A stretch of DNA of 57,259 nucleotides from Candidatus Glomeribacter gigasporarum BEG34 (lineage in GTDB: Bacteria > Pseudomonadota > Gammaproteobacteria > Burkholderiales > Burkholderiaceae). The position numbers and the translations under genes are program-made. The stretch lies in NCBI RefSeq assembly GCF_000227585.1, contig NZ_CAFB01000039.1:1-57259 (forward strand), given 5' to 3'. The notes under the pieces are model-generated. The model had not been told where the DNA came from. It saw nothing but the letters and a program-made list of their open reading frames with translations, and did not search any database. This document shows positions 5,476 through 40,660 of this stretch, one piece after another. Numbering within the stretch: the first letter of the stretch is position 1; the number at the start of each line of letters is the position of its first letter.

Positions 5476-6878
5476 GCCTGTTTTCACTGCGCGAAGCGGC
5501 GGCGTTGATTCCAGACGCGCGCATCATCGGCGATGCCAGTGTGCGTTTCGAGCGCGTCAGCACCGATAGCCGGACCGTTGCGCCGGGCGAACTCTTTGTC
5601 GCGTTGAAAGGGGAACGCTTCGATGCGCACGATTTTCTGCCGGAGGCGGTCAAGCGCGGCGCCGTCGCCGCGCTGGTCTCCCGCGACTTCCCGGAAATAC
5701 TGCTGCCCGCTTTGAAAGCGCCCGATACGTGCGCGGCGCTCGGTTTGCTCGCGCGCGGCTGGCGGCGGCGGTTCGCGCTGCCGTTGACGGCAGTGGTCGG
5801 CAGCAACGGCAAGACGACGGTCAAGGAAATGATCGCGTCGATTTTCGCCGCGGCGGTTGGCATGGAAGCATGCTTTGCCACGTATGGCAATCTGAATAAC
5901 CAGATCGGCCTGCCGCTCACATTGCTGCGTTTGAATCCCATGCACCGGTTGGGCGTGGTTGAACTTGGAATGAACACGCCCGGCGAAACGGCGGTTCTGA
6001 TGGAGATTGCTGAACCCACGATTGTGCTGGTGAACAACGCGCAACGCGAACATCAGGCCTTTATGAAAAGCGTAGAGGCCGTTGCGCACGAATACGCAGA
6101 CGCGATTGAGGCATTGCCTGCTGAGGGCGTTGCGGTATTTCCCGCCGATGACGTTTATACCGCGTTGTGGCGGAAGGCGGCGGGCGCGCGCCGCGTGATT
6201 GATTTCGCGCTCGATGATGAAACGGCCGGCGCCGCGGTGCGCGGTATTTGGCAGCCAGATAGTCAATTAGAGCCTTTTTCGATTCAAACTGAAATCGGGG
6301 CGTGCGCGCTCAAACTCCGCACGCTGGGCCGGCATAACGCGCGCAACGCCCTTGCCGCAACGGCGGCGGCGCTGGCGTCCGGCGTTGATGATCTGAAAAT
6401 CATCCAGAAAGGACTCGAAGCATTTGAGCCGGTCGCGGGACGTCTGACGTTAAAAATCGCATGCGTTGCGCCGCTGGCGGGCGCAACGGTGATTGATGAC
6501 AGCTATAACGCAAATCCCGATTCGCTGCGCGCGGCAATCGACGTACTGGCTGTGTGTTCACCGCCGCGCGCGCTGGTGATGGGCGATATGGGCGAGGTCG
6601 GCGAGGACGGCGCAGCCTTTCATCATGAGATCGGCGCGTATGCGCGCGCGCGGGGCATCGATGCGCTTTATGCGCTCGGCGAGGCATCGCGCGGCGCATG
6701 CGCCGCGTTTGGAGCGGGCGCGCATGCGTTCGACGACGCGGCTGCATTGGTCGAGCATTTATTGCGGGCGGGTTTGGATGCGCGCGCGACGATTCTGGTC
6801 AAAGGCTCGCGTTTTATGAAGATGGAGCGGGTGGTGAATGCATTGACCGATCCGCTCCACACCCGGACAGGGAATTAA
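5472..6878 (+). CDS. murF: UDP-MurNAc-tripeptide:D-Ala-D-Ala ligase MurF
   Basis: MurF joins D-Ala-D-Ala to the UDP-MurNAc tripeptide, the last cytoplasmic step of the peptide stem. The 468-residue protein has the ATP loop [11 protein letters not shown] (lysine 114), then [22 protein letters not shown] and the C-terminal [18 protein letters not shown]. Start and stop overlap or abut neighbours (4 bp with murE, 4 bp gap to mraY), consistent with one polycistronic message. Confidence 0.97.
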
Positions 6879-21350: not shown

Positions 21351-21424
21351 TAGAGCATTTTTCAGTAAGATTGCCACTGGTGCGAGCGCGAAGCGACACC
21401 GTGCAAGCCGCTGAAAATGCTCTA
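21351..21424 (+). repeat. Family A palindromic repeat (74-bp form) between bfr and a peptide-binding protein gene
   Basis: TAGAGCATTTTTCAG on the left and CTGAAAATGCTCTA on the right (one A shorter) are bounded by TA. Its right end supplies the stop codon TAG of the minus-strand gene ending at 21422. It lies between convergent genes and its hairpin could act on both messages. Confidence 0.93.
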
Positions 21425-23044
21425 TCTCAAGCTGACGCCATTAAACTGTGTAGGCCCAAAGGGATGAATTCTGAATCCGGTCACGTTCTTTCGGATGGGC
21501 TGGTAGACAATGGGGTAAGCGATTGGCGTAAACGGCTGTTCTTGCTTGAAGATTTTCTGTGCTTTTAAATAGCGCTGAGTGCGCTGATGGAGATCGGTGA
21601 TGTGTACCGCTTGTTGTACTAGATCATCAAAGGGTTTATAACACCAGAGCGAATAATTTGCAGTGCCTACTCCCCGGCAACCGTATTCCCCGAGCCAATT
21701 ATCAACATCGCCGTTATCAATAATTTTTCCGGCAAGCATTGCATCGTGCTCGCCTTTCCCGGTGCGTTTGATGTAATCTGCAAAATCATGGCGCTGAACG
21801 ATGTCCGCCTTGACGCCGATCTTTGCCCAGTCTGATTGAATCATTTCAGCCATCAGCTTTGGGCTCGGGTTATAAGGTCTCTGTAGAGAAGGCGCCCACA
21901 GCGTTATTTTAAACCCGTTTGGATAGCCGGCTTGCGTTAAAAAGGCTTTTGCCCGTTTAGAATTGCGCGGCGCATCCTTCAAGCTTTTATCGTAAGCCCA
22001 TTGCACGGGCGGCATGGGCGCGACCGCTGCTTGTGCGCGGCCTTCATACACTGCGTCGATTATGGCTTTCTTATTGATCGCCATATCCAGCGCACGACGC
22101 ACTAAAACCTTGTCCAAAGGTGGATGCGTGACGTTATAGGCGACATAACTCATCCCGAAGGCCGGTTTGCTCAGCACTTCAATATTCGGATCAGACTGTA
22201 GCGCGGCAATATCGACCAGACGCGGATAGACGCTGATTTGACATTCATTGCTTTTGAGTTTCTGTACGCGCACGGCGGCTTCGGGGATAATGGAAAAAAC
22301 GAGTTTCGACAGTTTGACATCCTCCGGTTTCCAATACTCTGGATTTCCCGCATAGCGTATGGATTCATCTTTCACATATTTTTCGAAGATAAAAGGGCCG
22401 GTCCCAACCGGCCTGCGGTTCATGTCGGAAGGCGCGCCAGACTTGAGCAATTGCGCCGCATATTCGGCGGAGAGAATCGATGCGGGGGGCGCAGCCAGAT
22501 TCGATAGAAAAACGGCGTTGGGAGACTTGAGCGTAAAACGCACGATATATGGATTGAACCGATCCGGCAGTTCGATTTTCTCAACCAGTTGATCAAAGCC
22601 TGTGTAATGCCAATACGGAAACTCAGCCAGATACGCTTTACGGAATGGCATCTCCAGGTTACGCATGCGTTCAAAAGTAAAAACGACATCCTCGCCATTG
22701 AATTCACGGCTGGGCATAAACCAGGGCGTGACGTGAAATTTCACGCCGTGACGCAACCAAAAGGTATAGACGCGTCCCTCTTTTGAAATTTTCCAGCGTT
22801 CAGCCAGACTGGGCTGGATTTTCGGCGTCTCGCTATTGAGATCAAAGTCGAGCAGTCTGTTAAAAACGGTTTCCGCAACTGCCGAGTATTCCACTCCGCT
22901 GGAGTATCGGCCTGGATCAAAGCCTGCCGGGCTGCCTTCAGAGCAATAGACGAGTGTCTTATTGGGTAATGTGGTATGTGCACTCAATAGGGAAGTCTTA
23001 CAGATGAGGCCCAGCATGACGCCGAGATTAGATAAACGGCGCAT
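21422..23044 (-). CDS. Periplasmic peptide-binding protein of an ABC importer (DppA/OppA family)
   Basis: This is a family 5 solute-binding protein of 540 residues. An N-terminal signal peptide (charged MRRLSNLG, a hydrophobic stretch, and a cut near SAHT) is followed by TLVYCSEGSPAGFDPG. Then come EDVVFTFERMRN, the long domain with ALDMAINKKAIIDAVYEGRAQ, and the C-terminal PFTPIAYPIVYQPIRKNVTGFRI. It resembles dipeptide-binding DppA. No permease or ATPase genes are adjacent. The gene starts inside the last 17 bp of a PAS/LuxR regulator gene, so the two are likely cotranscribed. The stop TAG is formed by a family A repeat. A related copy without a signal peptide lies at 39098-40660. Confidence 0.92.
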   Translation of the reverse strand: MRRLSNLGVMLGLICKTSLLSAHTTLPNKTLVYCSEGSPAGFDPGRYSSGVEYSAVAETVFNRLLDFDLNSETPKIQPSLAERWKISKEGRVYTFWLRHGVKFHVTPWFMPSREFNGEDVVFTFERMRNLEMPFRKAYLAEFPYWHYTGFDQLVEKIELPDRFNPYIVRFTLKSPNAVFLSNLAAPPASILSAEYAAQLLKSGAPSDMNRRPVGTGPFIFEKYVKDESIRYAGNPEYWKPEDVKLSKLVFSIIPEAAVRVQKLKSNECQISVYPRLVDIAALQSDPNIEVLSKPAFGMSYVAYNVTHPPLDKVLVRRALDMAINKKAIIDAVYEGRAQAAVAPMPPVQWAYDKSLKDAPRNSKRAKAFLTQAGYPNGFKITLWAPSLQRPYNPSPKLMAEMIQSDWAKIGVKADIVQRHDFADYIKRTGKGEHDAMLAGKIIDNGDVDNWLGEYGCRGVGTANYSLWCYKPFDDLVQQAVHITDLHQRTQRYLKAQKIFKQEQPFTPIAYPIVYQPIRKNVTGFRIHPFGPTQFNGVSLR

Positions 23045-23816
23045 ATCGGCCAGCCTCCGTTGGCAGTGAACGTAATTTGAGGATGATCTCGTGCAAATAA
23101 TGCGGTTGCAAACATTTATTTCTTAATTGGGAAATATGATTCGTAGCGGTTGCAGGAGAGGTATCCATCGCGCGAGCCACATATTTAATAGAGTTGTCTG
23201 CTCGCATTGTGCATAAAATCCGGATTTCTTTGAGTGTGGGTAGGTCGTATGGATGAAAGTAAATATCTATCTTCAGATGCTGCAAGAATTTTTTAATTGC
23301 TTCCTTTCCATGATAAAACTGCTGATAGAACTGAAGGAGTTTATGCAGTCCAAGTCGGCTGGTCATATCTTCAGAATAAGTGAGAATCGCAATGGTTTTT
23401 TGATTCTTCTGATCTTGAAGGGGGAATTTTATAGAGCGCTCAAATTGAAGGGCACCGCCGACCGTGAAATAAATGTGTTTAATTTGAAGCGCGCGTTTGG
23501 TTGATTTGACTTGATGGTCGATCTTTTCAGTATTTGCTAACTCACAATCTATCCAGGACAATATATTTGCGTTCAAATCAAGATTGCCATAAAAACGACA
23601 ATCCTGAGAAAGGATGTCTGCAGCGCTTAATCCTATTAGATGATCCACGGAATCAAGTTTTAGAGCGGCTGCATTAGAATAGTTGCTATAAATAAATTTT
23701 CCTGTCTGTGCGTCTTTTATATGAGCGCATCCGTTTAAATGCTCTACAAGATCATATAAAAAACTAACGTTAAAACGGATGCTTCCTAAATCATGCAGAA
23801 TCTGCGCTGTATCCAT
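23028..23816 (-). CDS. PAS-domain LuxR-type transcriptional regulator
   Basis: The start ATG 23816 is preceded by GAGGAAG at good spacing and gives 262 residues; an upstream ATG at 23852 lacks this. The N-terminal half is PAS-like (SFLYDLVEHLNGCAHIKDAQTGKFIYSN and HLIGLSAADIL). The C-terminal part, TLKEIRILCTMRADNSIKYVARAMDTSPATATNHISQLRNK, is a LuxR-type helix-turn-helix. The gene overlaps the downstream peptide-binding protein gene by 17 bp. The pairing suggests that it controls uptake of, or responds to, a peptide or amino-acid ligand; that is inference. A truncated paralogue is at 38769. Confidence 0.8.
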   Translation of the reverse strand: MDTAQILHDLGSIRFNVSFLYDLVEHLNGCAHIKDAQTGKFIYSNYSNAAALKLDSVDHLIGLSAADILSQDCRFYGNLDLNANILSWIDCELANTEKIDHQVKSTKRALQIKHIYFTVGGALQFERSIKFPLQDQKNQKTIAILTYSEDMTSRLGLHKLLQFYQQFYHGKEAIKKFLQHLKIDIYFHPYDLPTLKEIRILCTMRADNSIKYVARAMDTSPATATNHISQLRNKCLQPHYLHEIILKLRSLPTEAGRYAPFI

Positions 23817-23934
23817 AAGCTTCCTCAACCGATGCAATGAAAATGCTGTCATCGATTAAGGATAATCCTGTTTTTCTGTAATGGATGCTCTACTTCATTC
23901 TATAATTCACTTTTCTGGTTGAAAATAGTGACTT

Positions 23935-38613: not shown

Positions 38614-38768
38614 CAGGTCGGTACGGAAGAAGAGAAAGAAGATATTGAGAGTAAAACCATTCTTTTTTCTACTCAAAAAGTTAATTATTGAATGATAAGT
38701 TGAAACATTACTAAAAAATGGGAGTAGCCTCAACAGCTCAAAGAATTTTCATCGGTTAGGCACTCCCT

Positions 38769-39101
38769 ATGAATACTGTTTTAGATTCTGAGGATTTAAG
38801 AAGACGGATCAGTCTTGACGGTAGTCTTTTATATGATTTCGTAAAAGTTTTTCCAGAGTCATGCAATCTAAGAGATGCACGTTCAGATAAATATCTATGC
38901 GTCAACTATTACATGGCTAGTCTTTGTGGAGCGCAATCTACTGATCAAATTATTGGAATGAAGCGACATGACCTCTGGATAAATAAAACAAGTCATAGAA
39001 ATCTGAATTTAAACCAAATCATTCTATCCAATCACAAAAATGCCGTGCAATGGCACAGAAAAATAGAGAACAAAATTCTTATAACAAAACATCCATTATG
39101 A
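38769..39101 (+). pseudogene. Truncated PAS-domain regulator (lacks the LuxR DNA-binding half)
   Basis: The 110 residues match the N-terminal PAS half of the regulator encoded at 23028-23816: LLYDFVKVFPESCNLRDARSDKYLCVNYYMA against FLYDLVEHLNGCAHIKDAQTGKFIYSNYSNA, then IIGMKRHDLW against LIGLSAADIL. It stops where the linker to the helix-turn-helix would start. The sequence before the ATG (CATCGGTTAGG) resembles that before the intact gene (CATCGGTTGAGG). It has no DNA-binding domain. Its stop forms an ATGA overlap with the next gene. Confidence 0.78.
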
Positions 39102-40660
39102 ATACATCGAACAGCATCGCTGCAATACCGGATAAAACCCTCAACTATTGCTCTGAGGCTAGCCCGATAGGGTTCGACGCGAACCAGGCCAGAACCATTC
39201 CGGATCACACGGCAAGCTCGGTGAGCCTTTATAACCGATTGCTTGAATTTGAGCGCGGCGGGACGAAGCTTGAACCGGGCCTTGCTGAAAGTTGGGACAT
39301 TTCAAAGGACGGGAAAGTCTACACATTCCATCTACGACGCGGCGTAAAATTTCACAGTACGCCCTGGTTCAAGCCAACGCGCGAATTCAACGCAGAGGAT
39401 GTGCTCTTCACTTTTGAGCGGATGCGCAATCCGAATATGCCGTTCCGTAAAGCCTATCCGGTCGAATTTACGGATTTTCATCATCTTGGTTTAGACAACC
39501 TCATTTCCAGGATTGAAGCGCTGGATGAAGGGCACGCCATACGATTTACTTTGAATACTGTGCATGCGCCCTTTTTAGTGAAGCTGGCAGCGCCTGTGAT
39601 CTCAATTCTCTCTGCTGAATACGCCGCGAAATTGCTGAAGGAGGGCAACCCCTCTGATATCAGTTGGAAACCGATTGGCACAGGCCCGTTTATTTTTCAG
39701 GAATACATAAAGGATGCAACGATTCGGTTTAGGGGCAACCCTGAGTACTGGAAACCCGATGAGGTGCAGTTGTCCAGGCTGATCTTTGATATCGTGCCAG
39801 ATGCCGCTGTGCGTGCGCAGAAGCTCAAGGCGAATGAGTGTCAGGTTGTGACGAGCTTGCGTTCGACGGATATCCCCGTGCTTAAACATGATCCAGGTCT
39901 TCGGGCGCTCAGTCAGCCAGGTTTCAATGTCCGCTATCTGATATATAACACCGCCCATAAACCTTTGGATGATGTGCGGGTGCGCCGTGCACTGGAGATG
40001 GCAATTGATAAGAAAGCCCTTATAAATCAAGTGTATGAAGGGCGCGCGCAAATTGCCGTTGCGCCGCTGCCGCCGTTGCAGTGGTCGTATGACAAAACAT
40101 TGCAAGATGCGCCGCGTGATCTGAAACAGGCAAAAGCCCTGTTAGCGCAAGCGGGCTACCCGAACGGATTTAAATTTTCTTTGTGGATACCGCATTCTTC
40201 AATTGGGACGAATGTAAATCCACGGTTGACAGCCGAAATCATTCAGTCAGACTGGAAGGAAATGGGTGTTGAAGCAAAAATCGTCGGCTATGAATGGGGA
40301 GAGTTTATTAAGCGCGCAATCAATGGCAAACACGATGTATTGCTTATCGGAATAATCAGCAATATTCCTGATCCTGAAAACCTGTTGAAAGTGTTCAGTT
40401 GCACTGAAATAGGTCATGGTTTTAATCTATCAAGATGGTGTCATTCATCATTCGACGACTTGATTCAGCGCGCCGCTCAAACACTGGATATTGCTGAACG
40501 CTCTCAGCTTTATACACAAGCACAAAAGCTGTTGAAACGCGAGCAGCCGGTTACCCCCCTCGCCTACGCGATCAACTACCAGGTTGTCAACAAGCATGTG
40601 ACGGGCTTCAAAATCAATCCGCTTGGCCCGACGATTTTTTCCGGGGTTGGCCTGAAATAA
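39098..40660 (+). CDS. Peptide-binding protein of DppA/OppA family without a signal peptide
   Basis: This is a close paralogue of the protein at 21422-23044. The similarity starts at KTLNYCSEASPIGFD and runs to the end (PVTPLAYAINYQVVNKHVTGFKI). The first residues are only NTSNSIAAIPD, with no hydrophobic stretch, so it should remain in the cytoplasm and not serve transport. The start used here, ATG 39098, forms an ATGA overlap with the truncated regulator; ATG 39050 only adds polar residues. The reading frame is otherwise intact over 520 residues. It is either a recent, still open pseudogene or has a new role. Confidence 0.85.
   Translation: MNTSNSIAAIPDKTLNYCSEASPIGFDANQARTIPDHTASSVSLYNRLLEFERGGTKLEPGLAESWDISKDGKVYTFHLRRGVKFHSTPWFKPTREFNAEDVLFTFERMRNPNMPFRKAYPVEFTDFHHLGLDNLISRIEALDEGHAIRFTLNTVHAPFLVKLAAPVISILSAEYAAKLLKEGNPSDISWKPIGTGPFIFQEYIKDATIRFRGNPEYWKPDEVQLSRLIFDIVPDAAVRAQKLKANECQVVTSLRSTDIPVLKHDPGLRALSQPGFNVRYLIYNTAHKPLDDVRVRRALEMAIDKKALINQVYEGRAQIAVAPLPPLQWSYDKTLQDAPRDLKQAKALLAQAGYPNGFKFSLWIPHSSIGTNVNPRLTAEIIQSDWKEMGVEAKIVGYEWGEFIKRAINGKHDVLLIGIISNIPDPENLLKVFSCTEIGHGFNLSRWCHSSFDDLIQRAAQTLDIAERSQLYTQAQKLLKREQPVTPLAYAINYQVVNKHVTGFKINPLGPTIFSGVGLK

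Follow-up and report, generated by a model that had tools for sequence, protein, structure and literature searches.

The periplasmic dipeptide-binding protein DppA of Escherichia coli is described as holding the carboxyl and amino ends of its ligand through R383 and D436, residues that also contact DppB (PMC12136057). Proteins of this type can occur as paralogues; in Pseudomonas aeruginosa, DppA1-A5 are reported to share one DppBCDF (PMC12728205; PMC4206461). VqmA, a quorum-sensing receptor known from Vibrio cholerae and phage VP882, combines a PAS domain with a LuxR-type helix-turn-helix (HTH). According to PMC8284805, the PAS domain of VqmA is required for both dimerisation and DNA binding. 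Here we describe a gene pair in which a regulator resembling VqmA lies upstream of a relative of DppA, with a part missing from each.

Members of Candidatus Glomeribacter are endosymbionts of arbuscular mycorrhizal fungi; the bacterium studied here is an obligate one and has a reduced genome. The draft genome of Ca. Glomeribacter gigasporarum analysed here (G000) comprises 1,726,950 bp in 124 contigs, and the published genome size is 1.72 Mb (PMC4285135). G001 is the sole genome of the same genus among the relatives compared. The window, that is the whole stretch of DNA analysed, consists of positions 1-57259 of contig C86 (57,259 nucleotides). It contains two pairs of genes of the same family, one broken, hereafter the focal pair, and one intact (Table 1).

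Table 1. Features of the focal pair (38769-40660, + strand) and of the other pair in the window
Feature	Position	Strand	Basis
Leader and presumed promoter region of the focal pair, homologous to the leaders of intact pairs	38664..38768	+	blastn
Regulator remnant, 110 codons; N-terminal part of a PAS-HTH regulator, ends within the PAS fold, HTH absent	38769..39101	+	ORF, alignment, model of intact regulator
Presumed deletion junction	39087..39097	.	502 bp gap against C91, 512 bp against G001:C56
ATGA, where the remnant and binding-protein frames overlap	39098..39101	+	
DppA-like solute-binding protein, 520 codons, without signal peptide	39098..40660	+	ORF, Pfam, NCBIfam, PDB, hydropathy
Intact family regulator of the other pair, 274 aa, PAS and HTH	23028..23852	-	
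Intact DppA-like binding protein of the other pair, N-terminal hydrophobic stretch kept	21422..23044	-	

The binding protein of the focal pair matches SBP_bac_5 in Pfam (4e-95). Its best NCBIfam model is DppA (2e-152), at 508 bits, which is below the model's cut-off of 1005. Dipeptide-binding proteins in the PDB are matched at E about 1e-140, and the homology to E. coli DppA (1dpp, 8z1y) and to SBP_bac_5 is full length, covering residues 13-519. The frame can be read from the ATG of the overlap or from an upstream in-frame ATG at 39050, which would give 536 aa, and hydropathy shows no hydrophobic N-terminal stretch from either start. The maximum 11-residue hydropathy is 0.33 (0.88 from ATG 39050) against 1.88-3.03 in 12 relatives. 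The first residue of mature E. coli DppA (1dpp) aligns to K13, which places the ATG within the last residues of a former signal peptide. The earlier note on this DNA, made from the sequence alone, had described a binding protein that lost its signal peptide and begins near the mature part, joined to the regulator by an ATGA overlap, and in these respects it was right.

The remnant aligns along almost its entire length to the N-termini of intact regulators, with 50% identity to that of C91 and 61 of 104 residues identical to that of G001:C56. It corresponds to residues 25-122 of the intact regulator of the window. A structure model of the latter (28-sequence alignment, mean pLDDT 87.5, pTM 0.81) places the PAS strands at 42-47, 53-56, 122-129, 135-146 and 153-162, followed by helices and then by a four-helix HTH (207-262). 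Judged by this model, the remnant ends inside the PAS core before three of the five strands, and a complete PAS fold is not present. The regulator had been said to stop after the PAS region and to have lost its DNA-binding half. The stop lies earlier than that; the HTH is indeed gone, and the extent of the loss was understated, as half of the PAS fold is missing too. Pfam detects no C-terminal GerE-type HTH in the remnant, and the HTH of two paralogous regulators scores 28.6 bits (L009) and 32.2 bits (L020) at a cut-off of 23.5.

Intact members of the family bear the PAS and LuxR-type HTH architecture, as indicated by the model and by structure matches, and on this evidence they resemble VqmA. 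In a Foldseek search with the intact regulator model, VqmA was the best full-length match (E 2.5e-10, query TM 0.43). In a second structure comparison VqmA reached Z 13.9 with an rmsd of 7.4 over 186 residues, tied with PAS-only structures. A sequence profile of the regulator matched only LuxR/GerE-type HTHs among solved structures, with VqmA chains at E 0.002-0.01. The Glomeribacter regulators differ from VqmA in sequence (16-21% identity) and in being linked to transport genes, and the focal copy differs further through the loss of half the PAS domain and of the HTH.

The regulator homology of the focal pair extends to AAACATCC at 39087-39094, and that of the binding protein starts by 39097. 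In the relatives that possess both genes the equivalent points are 502 bp (C91) or 512 bp (G001:C56) apart; G001:C56 carries unread bases at the breakpoint positions and its binding-protein gene stops early, at 5853. With a single gap, the sequence on either side of the junction can be aligned to intact pairs. What is missing is the last part of the PAS domain with the linker and the HTH behind it, followed by the stretch where the regulator overlaps the binding-protein start and by the signal peptide's hydrophobic portion; intact relatives do not have this lesion. A single deletion that removed both the HTH and the signal peptide, as had been proposed, therefore fits the base alignments. C91 has ATGAAT at the equivalent position, inside its signal-peptide region, so that the ATGA of the focal pair need not have arisen for coupling. 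An overlap of 4 bp is also found in one intact pair (C67 at 17.4 kb). Upstream of the regulator, blastn aligns 38713-38778 to C88 at 79% and 38664-38777 to C76 at 72%, and 38744-38957, a stretch that includes coding sequence, to C91 at 70%.

Recent conversion of the focal copy from another copy is rejected because a near-identical block is absent: megablast against 22 other family stretches found no 60-bp block at 93% identity or above. The longest exact match to any of them is 44 bp, to C91. The intact locus was sought in G001 by synteny, as the earlier note had suggested, and was not found there. The flanking dus pieces match C541 and C101 and mutM matches C381, a scatter over three contigs that leaves no syntenic site for comparison. 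The mutM gene of G001:C381 adjoins a cassette of a family regulator and a gene of the major facilitator type (MFS). In G001:C541 (L128:1848-2879) the dus piece runs into MFS-like sequence while the remaining dus matches C101, which may represent rearrangement or misassembly.

The focal pair belongs to a large family. Matches, fragments included, number 25 in G000 and 17 in G001 for the binding protein, and 23 in each genome for the regulator. At 15 loci in G000 a binding-protein gene lies downstream of a regulator gene in the same orientation. The focal pair had been taken for the second copy of a pair; it is one of these 15, and it is not a close copy of the pair at 23 kb (30% amino-acid identity in the regulator, 55% in the binding protein). 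At ten loci the regulator is unbroken (259-304 aa) and the binding-protein frame is open, three of these pairs (C39, C58 and C114 at 25 kb) being cut by a contig end. The five broken loci are the focal pair, C67 (5.6 kb), C81 (33 kb), C83 and C114 (13.8 kb). The break in C67 falls on an unread base and could be a sequencing error. Breakage is thus a common event here, the four loci other than the focal pair being damaged in differing ways. In eight of the ten intact pairs the end of the regulator gene runs over a possible start of the binding-protein gene; in C39 and C58 the genes are separated by about 0.1 and 0.8 kb. C55 and C58 are identical over the 225 bases where their contigs end and, to judge from this match, probably form two parts of one locus, in which case C55 should not count as an extra copy. 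The earlier note had held that a relative with the same short form, if strongly conserved, would point to functional design. In G001 the five pairs read (C7, C18, C45, C56 and C67) have unbroken regulators; two further regulator fragments (C132 and C594) lie at contig ends and do not allow a judgement.

Several other copies deserve description. The C114 copies at 9.1 kb and 25.5 kb (L016 and L020) are equal at 678 of 678 coding bases and 99.3% identical over 709 bp; this identity reaches the contig end and may be a true conversion or an assembly effect. In the broken pair L016 (G000:C114:9059-14155), frames that by eye are transposase-like and restriction/methylase-like follow the regulator end, and the binding protein beyond them is without its first part. 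L024 (G000:C88:124834-126150) is an open binding-protein frame of 438 aa with about 100 internal residues missing and no regulator match nearby. The frame behind the family regulator at L148:1495-3268 (G000:C89) resembles a D-Ala-D-Ala dipeptidase rather than a transporter.

One set of dpp permease genes was found in each genome. In G000 it consists of DppC (cut), DppD and DppF at the start of contig C63, and in G001 of DppB, DppC and DppD preceded by two binding proteins. A search for DppB yielded a single match, in G001; the G000 draft gave none, and its dpp operon breaks off inside dppC at the contig end. The BPD_transp_1 matches number seven in G000, a C88 pair among them; inspection covered the C84 pair, which is PstC/PstA, and the C80 pair, which is PotH/PotI-like. 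G001 has twelve such matches, and inspection covered the DppB/DppC pair and the C830 pair, which by eye is PstC/PstA-like. As with DppA1-A5 of P. aeruginosa, several binding-protein paralogues exist beside one dipeptide permease set. P. aeruginosa has five paralogues, whereas Glomeribacter has about 15 loci with a regulator gene upstream of each, and here use of a shared permease would be presumed. Among the Glomeribacter papers found by literature searches, which do not include the original genome paper, no title or abstract opening concerns this gene family.

Regulators of the family also occur linked to MFS genes, in G000 and G001 as well as beyond the genus. In the two Glomeribacter genomes, metabolite/H+ symporter-like MFS genes directly follow regulators at L147:2803-4837 (G000:C87), L026:1338-3326 (G000:C71) and L127:1621-3571 (G001:C381), the three cases tested by Pfam. 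In the 28-sequence alignment the HTH region of MFS-linked regulators looks shorter or degenerate compared with that of regulators linked to binding proteins. Profile searches outside the genus found the regulator in 11 of 297 other Burkholderiaceae genomes and in two of 368 other genomes of the class. One of the two class-level matches (G155) is a 665-aa PAS protein and was rejected as a true relative on its architecture. Copy numbers outside the genus are lower bounds, at most 7 or 8 candidates per genome having been scored; within this limit, ten of the 11 Burkholderiaceae genomes with a match show one copy each. Neighbouring genes were identified by eye from their N-termini, with six transporter genes tested by Pfam. 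By this measure an MFS gene adjoins the regulator in 11 of the 16 stretches from outside the genus (the three tested by Pfam are MFS), and no binding protein was seen beside the regulator among the listed neighbours of the 16. The Burkholderiaceae cassettes are thus like the Glomeribacter pairs in regulator family but differ in the partner, which is an MFS transporter in the former and a binding protein, in many copies, in the latter.

The ligand anchors of DppA are altered in much of the Glomeribacter family. The focal protein differs from DppA in having Ile and Asn at the positions of R383 and D436, an assignment that is approximate because loop lengths differ. Arg and Asp are both present in the two Burkholderia/Paraburkholderia proteins compared. 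Of three further proteins, the two of the G001 dpp operon and that of G000:C82, all have Asp and one has Arg, the others having Pro and Ser at the Arg position. Scoring of the regulator-linked copies was limited to those that cover the position, 12 for Asp and 13 for Arg. Asp is replaced in 11 of the 12, once by Glu, and the only scored copy to retain it is the binding protein of the window's other pair. Arg is replaced in three of the 13, by Ile in each case (the focal copy, C76 and C88), and these three alone have a SIGTN motif at this anchor. Among copies without a linked regulator Asp is often lost too (C55, C73 and w76) or gapped (three in G001). The loss thus extends beyond the copies that have a regulator beside them. 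From these two positions, which lie in loops of variable length, it appears probable that ordinary dipeptides are not bound in the usual manner by most regulator-linked binding proteins.

Codon models, run with custom scripts, gave no sign of relaxed constraint on the focal binding-protein gene. With 13 sequences (519 codons; G001:C45 left out), a separate omega for the focal copy (0.194 against 0.198) did not improve the fit (2dlnL 0.06). With 18 sequences the omega of the focal terminal branch was 0.179 (CI 0.13-0.24) against 0.224 overall; this set used C55 as a separate tip and was without G001:C45, C114a, C67a, C83, C58, C71, C42, C64 and C56. The two halves of the gene, each on its own tree, gave 0.24 (0.15-0.39) and 0.21 (0.13-0.34). 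The focal copy has private changes at eight of 155 otherwise invariant columns, compared with 1-18 in the nine other tested copies. For the regulator remnant (109 codons) omega was nominally 0.15 (0.05-0.30) on a saturated branch, with five of 11 pairwise fits hitting bounds. The fraction of the focal branch that could have been neutral at its end is at most about 0.07 (2dlnL 3.2 at 0.06 and 4.6 at 0.08), about 0.055 on a tree that pairs the focal copy with G001:C56, and about 0.16 under the permissive assumption of a pre-deletion omega of 0.11. The intervals of the 18-sequence, half-gene, remnant and neutral-fraction fits hold other branches fixed, and C114a was left out of the neutral-fraction fit and of the whole-gene AU trees.

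The broken copy C81b has an elevated omega (0.51, 0.32-0.89, 2dlnL 8.5). Values are also raised in other members of its clade, namely the unbroken C67b (0.33) and C39 (0.39) and the contig-cut C55 (0.35). For two other truncated copies, at 0.29 and 0.32, the family value lies within the interval; the power of the rate test is therefore only partly demonstrated. A mosaic structure was significant in six of six triples of binding-protein genes on all positions (p 0.0002-0.04) and in three of six on third positions. Because of this mosaicism the rate figures are approximate. The focal rates fit a young lesion or continuing use alike. Either a recent deletion or a useful cytoplasmic product had been offered as the explanation of the long open frame; both agree with the rates, and the data do not separate them.

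We consider it likely that the focal pair arose by a recent deletion in a partly decaying birth-and-death gene family. The intact unit consists of a gene for a cytoplasmic, VqmA-like PAS-HTH regulator and, usually overlapping or abutting its end, a gene for a DppA-like protein that carries a signal peptide. A small molecule is presumably sensed by the regulator, which would govern the unit's own promoter, and the exported binding protein presumably captures a solute for delivery to the Dpp permease. A single deletion of about 0.5 kb would have begun inside the PAS domain, removed the rest of the regulator with its HTH, and reached into the signal peptide of the binding protein, taking the peptide's start and hydrophobic core. 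If transcribed, the leftover would yield an incomplete PAS fragment and, via the ATGA, at best a cytoplasmic binding protein unfit for uptake. We infer both the loss of function and its recency. We favour a recent loss on three counts: the export signal is missing at the same point as half of the sensor fold, no other pair examined shares the form, and a third of the G000 loci are broken, each differently. The low neutral fraction and the omega of 0.18 are as expected of a young lesion. Against a recent loss count the 520-codon open frame without excess changes, as a still useful protein would show, and the mosaic genes, which blur the rates and could refresh a dead copy.

The strongest rival is recombination between paralogues, by which a regulator like that of C91 or G001:C56 was joined at the junction to a binding protein like those of C76 and C88; the product would be equally broken. 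We judge this unlikely, although the two genes do differ in their affinities. For the remnant, which groups with G001:C56, a relationship to C76/C88 is rejected (AU p 0.002). The binding protein, by contrast, is placed with C76 and C88 in two of three whole-gene trees (0.99; UFBoot 84) and has the Ile and SIGTN motif in common with them. C76 and C88 themselves show discord between regulator and binding protein, and the mosaic nature of the binding-protein genes agrees with such exchange. However, grouping of the binding protein with G001:C56, G001:C45 or C114b is not rejected (AU p 0.18-0.31), that with C91 is nearly rejected (0.06), and the C76/C88 grouping is not recovered in the 18-sequence tree. 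For the 5' part of the gene, trees without C76/C88 (AU p 0.03) and, nearly, those with them (0.06) are worse than a pairing with C88 alone; for the 3' part nothing is rejected (p 0.24). An older conversion within the gene would also explain the discord without involving the junction.

That the short forms have been retained because a cytoplasmic binding protein or a PAS fragment is useful seems very improbable to us. The 520-codon open frame, an omega like that of intact copies and the preserved shared leader are in keeping with such a design, but the form is absent among the five G001 pairs read, and the signal peptide and half of the sensor fold were lost at one point. Both DppA dipeptide anchors are missing as well; most paralogues are also without the Asp, so this is not a mark of death. 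Fusion of two different family loci in the assembly is more doubtful still and scarcely to be expected, since the junction sits within a 106,908-bp contig and no repeat of a length that would readily mislead an assembler was found there. What speaks for such an artefact is that draft contigs do end inside family genes (C39, C55, C58, C73 and C114) and that the regulator and the binding protein have different affinities. A recent deletion remains the preferred account of the focal pair.

Taken alone, the focal copy is ordinary gene-family decay, a degenerate gene copy of a known kind; its use is to illustrate how a lesion can leave a long frame open and, to all appearance, normally constrained. 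The novelty resides in the family, in which a VqmA-like regulator is coupled to a DppA-like protein. About 15 sensor/binding-protein loci beside apparently one dpp permease set, in the reduced genome of an endosymbiont, are of greater interest than the broken copy. As a speculation, and one that we think improbable as a whole, a regulator that is elsewhere MFS-linked may in Glomeribacter have gained duplicated dppA genes as its new partners and spread into a repertoire in which each receptor has one binding protein. The binding proteins, which shed the Asp anchor and recombine, may then read many non-standard host compounds, and copies lacking the signal peptide or the regulator, the focal one among them, would serve as silent donors or be cast-off variants of this diversifying repertoire. 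Should every pair read a host compound of its own, the family would be a list of what the fungus feeds its bacterium.
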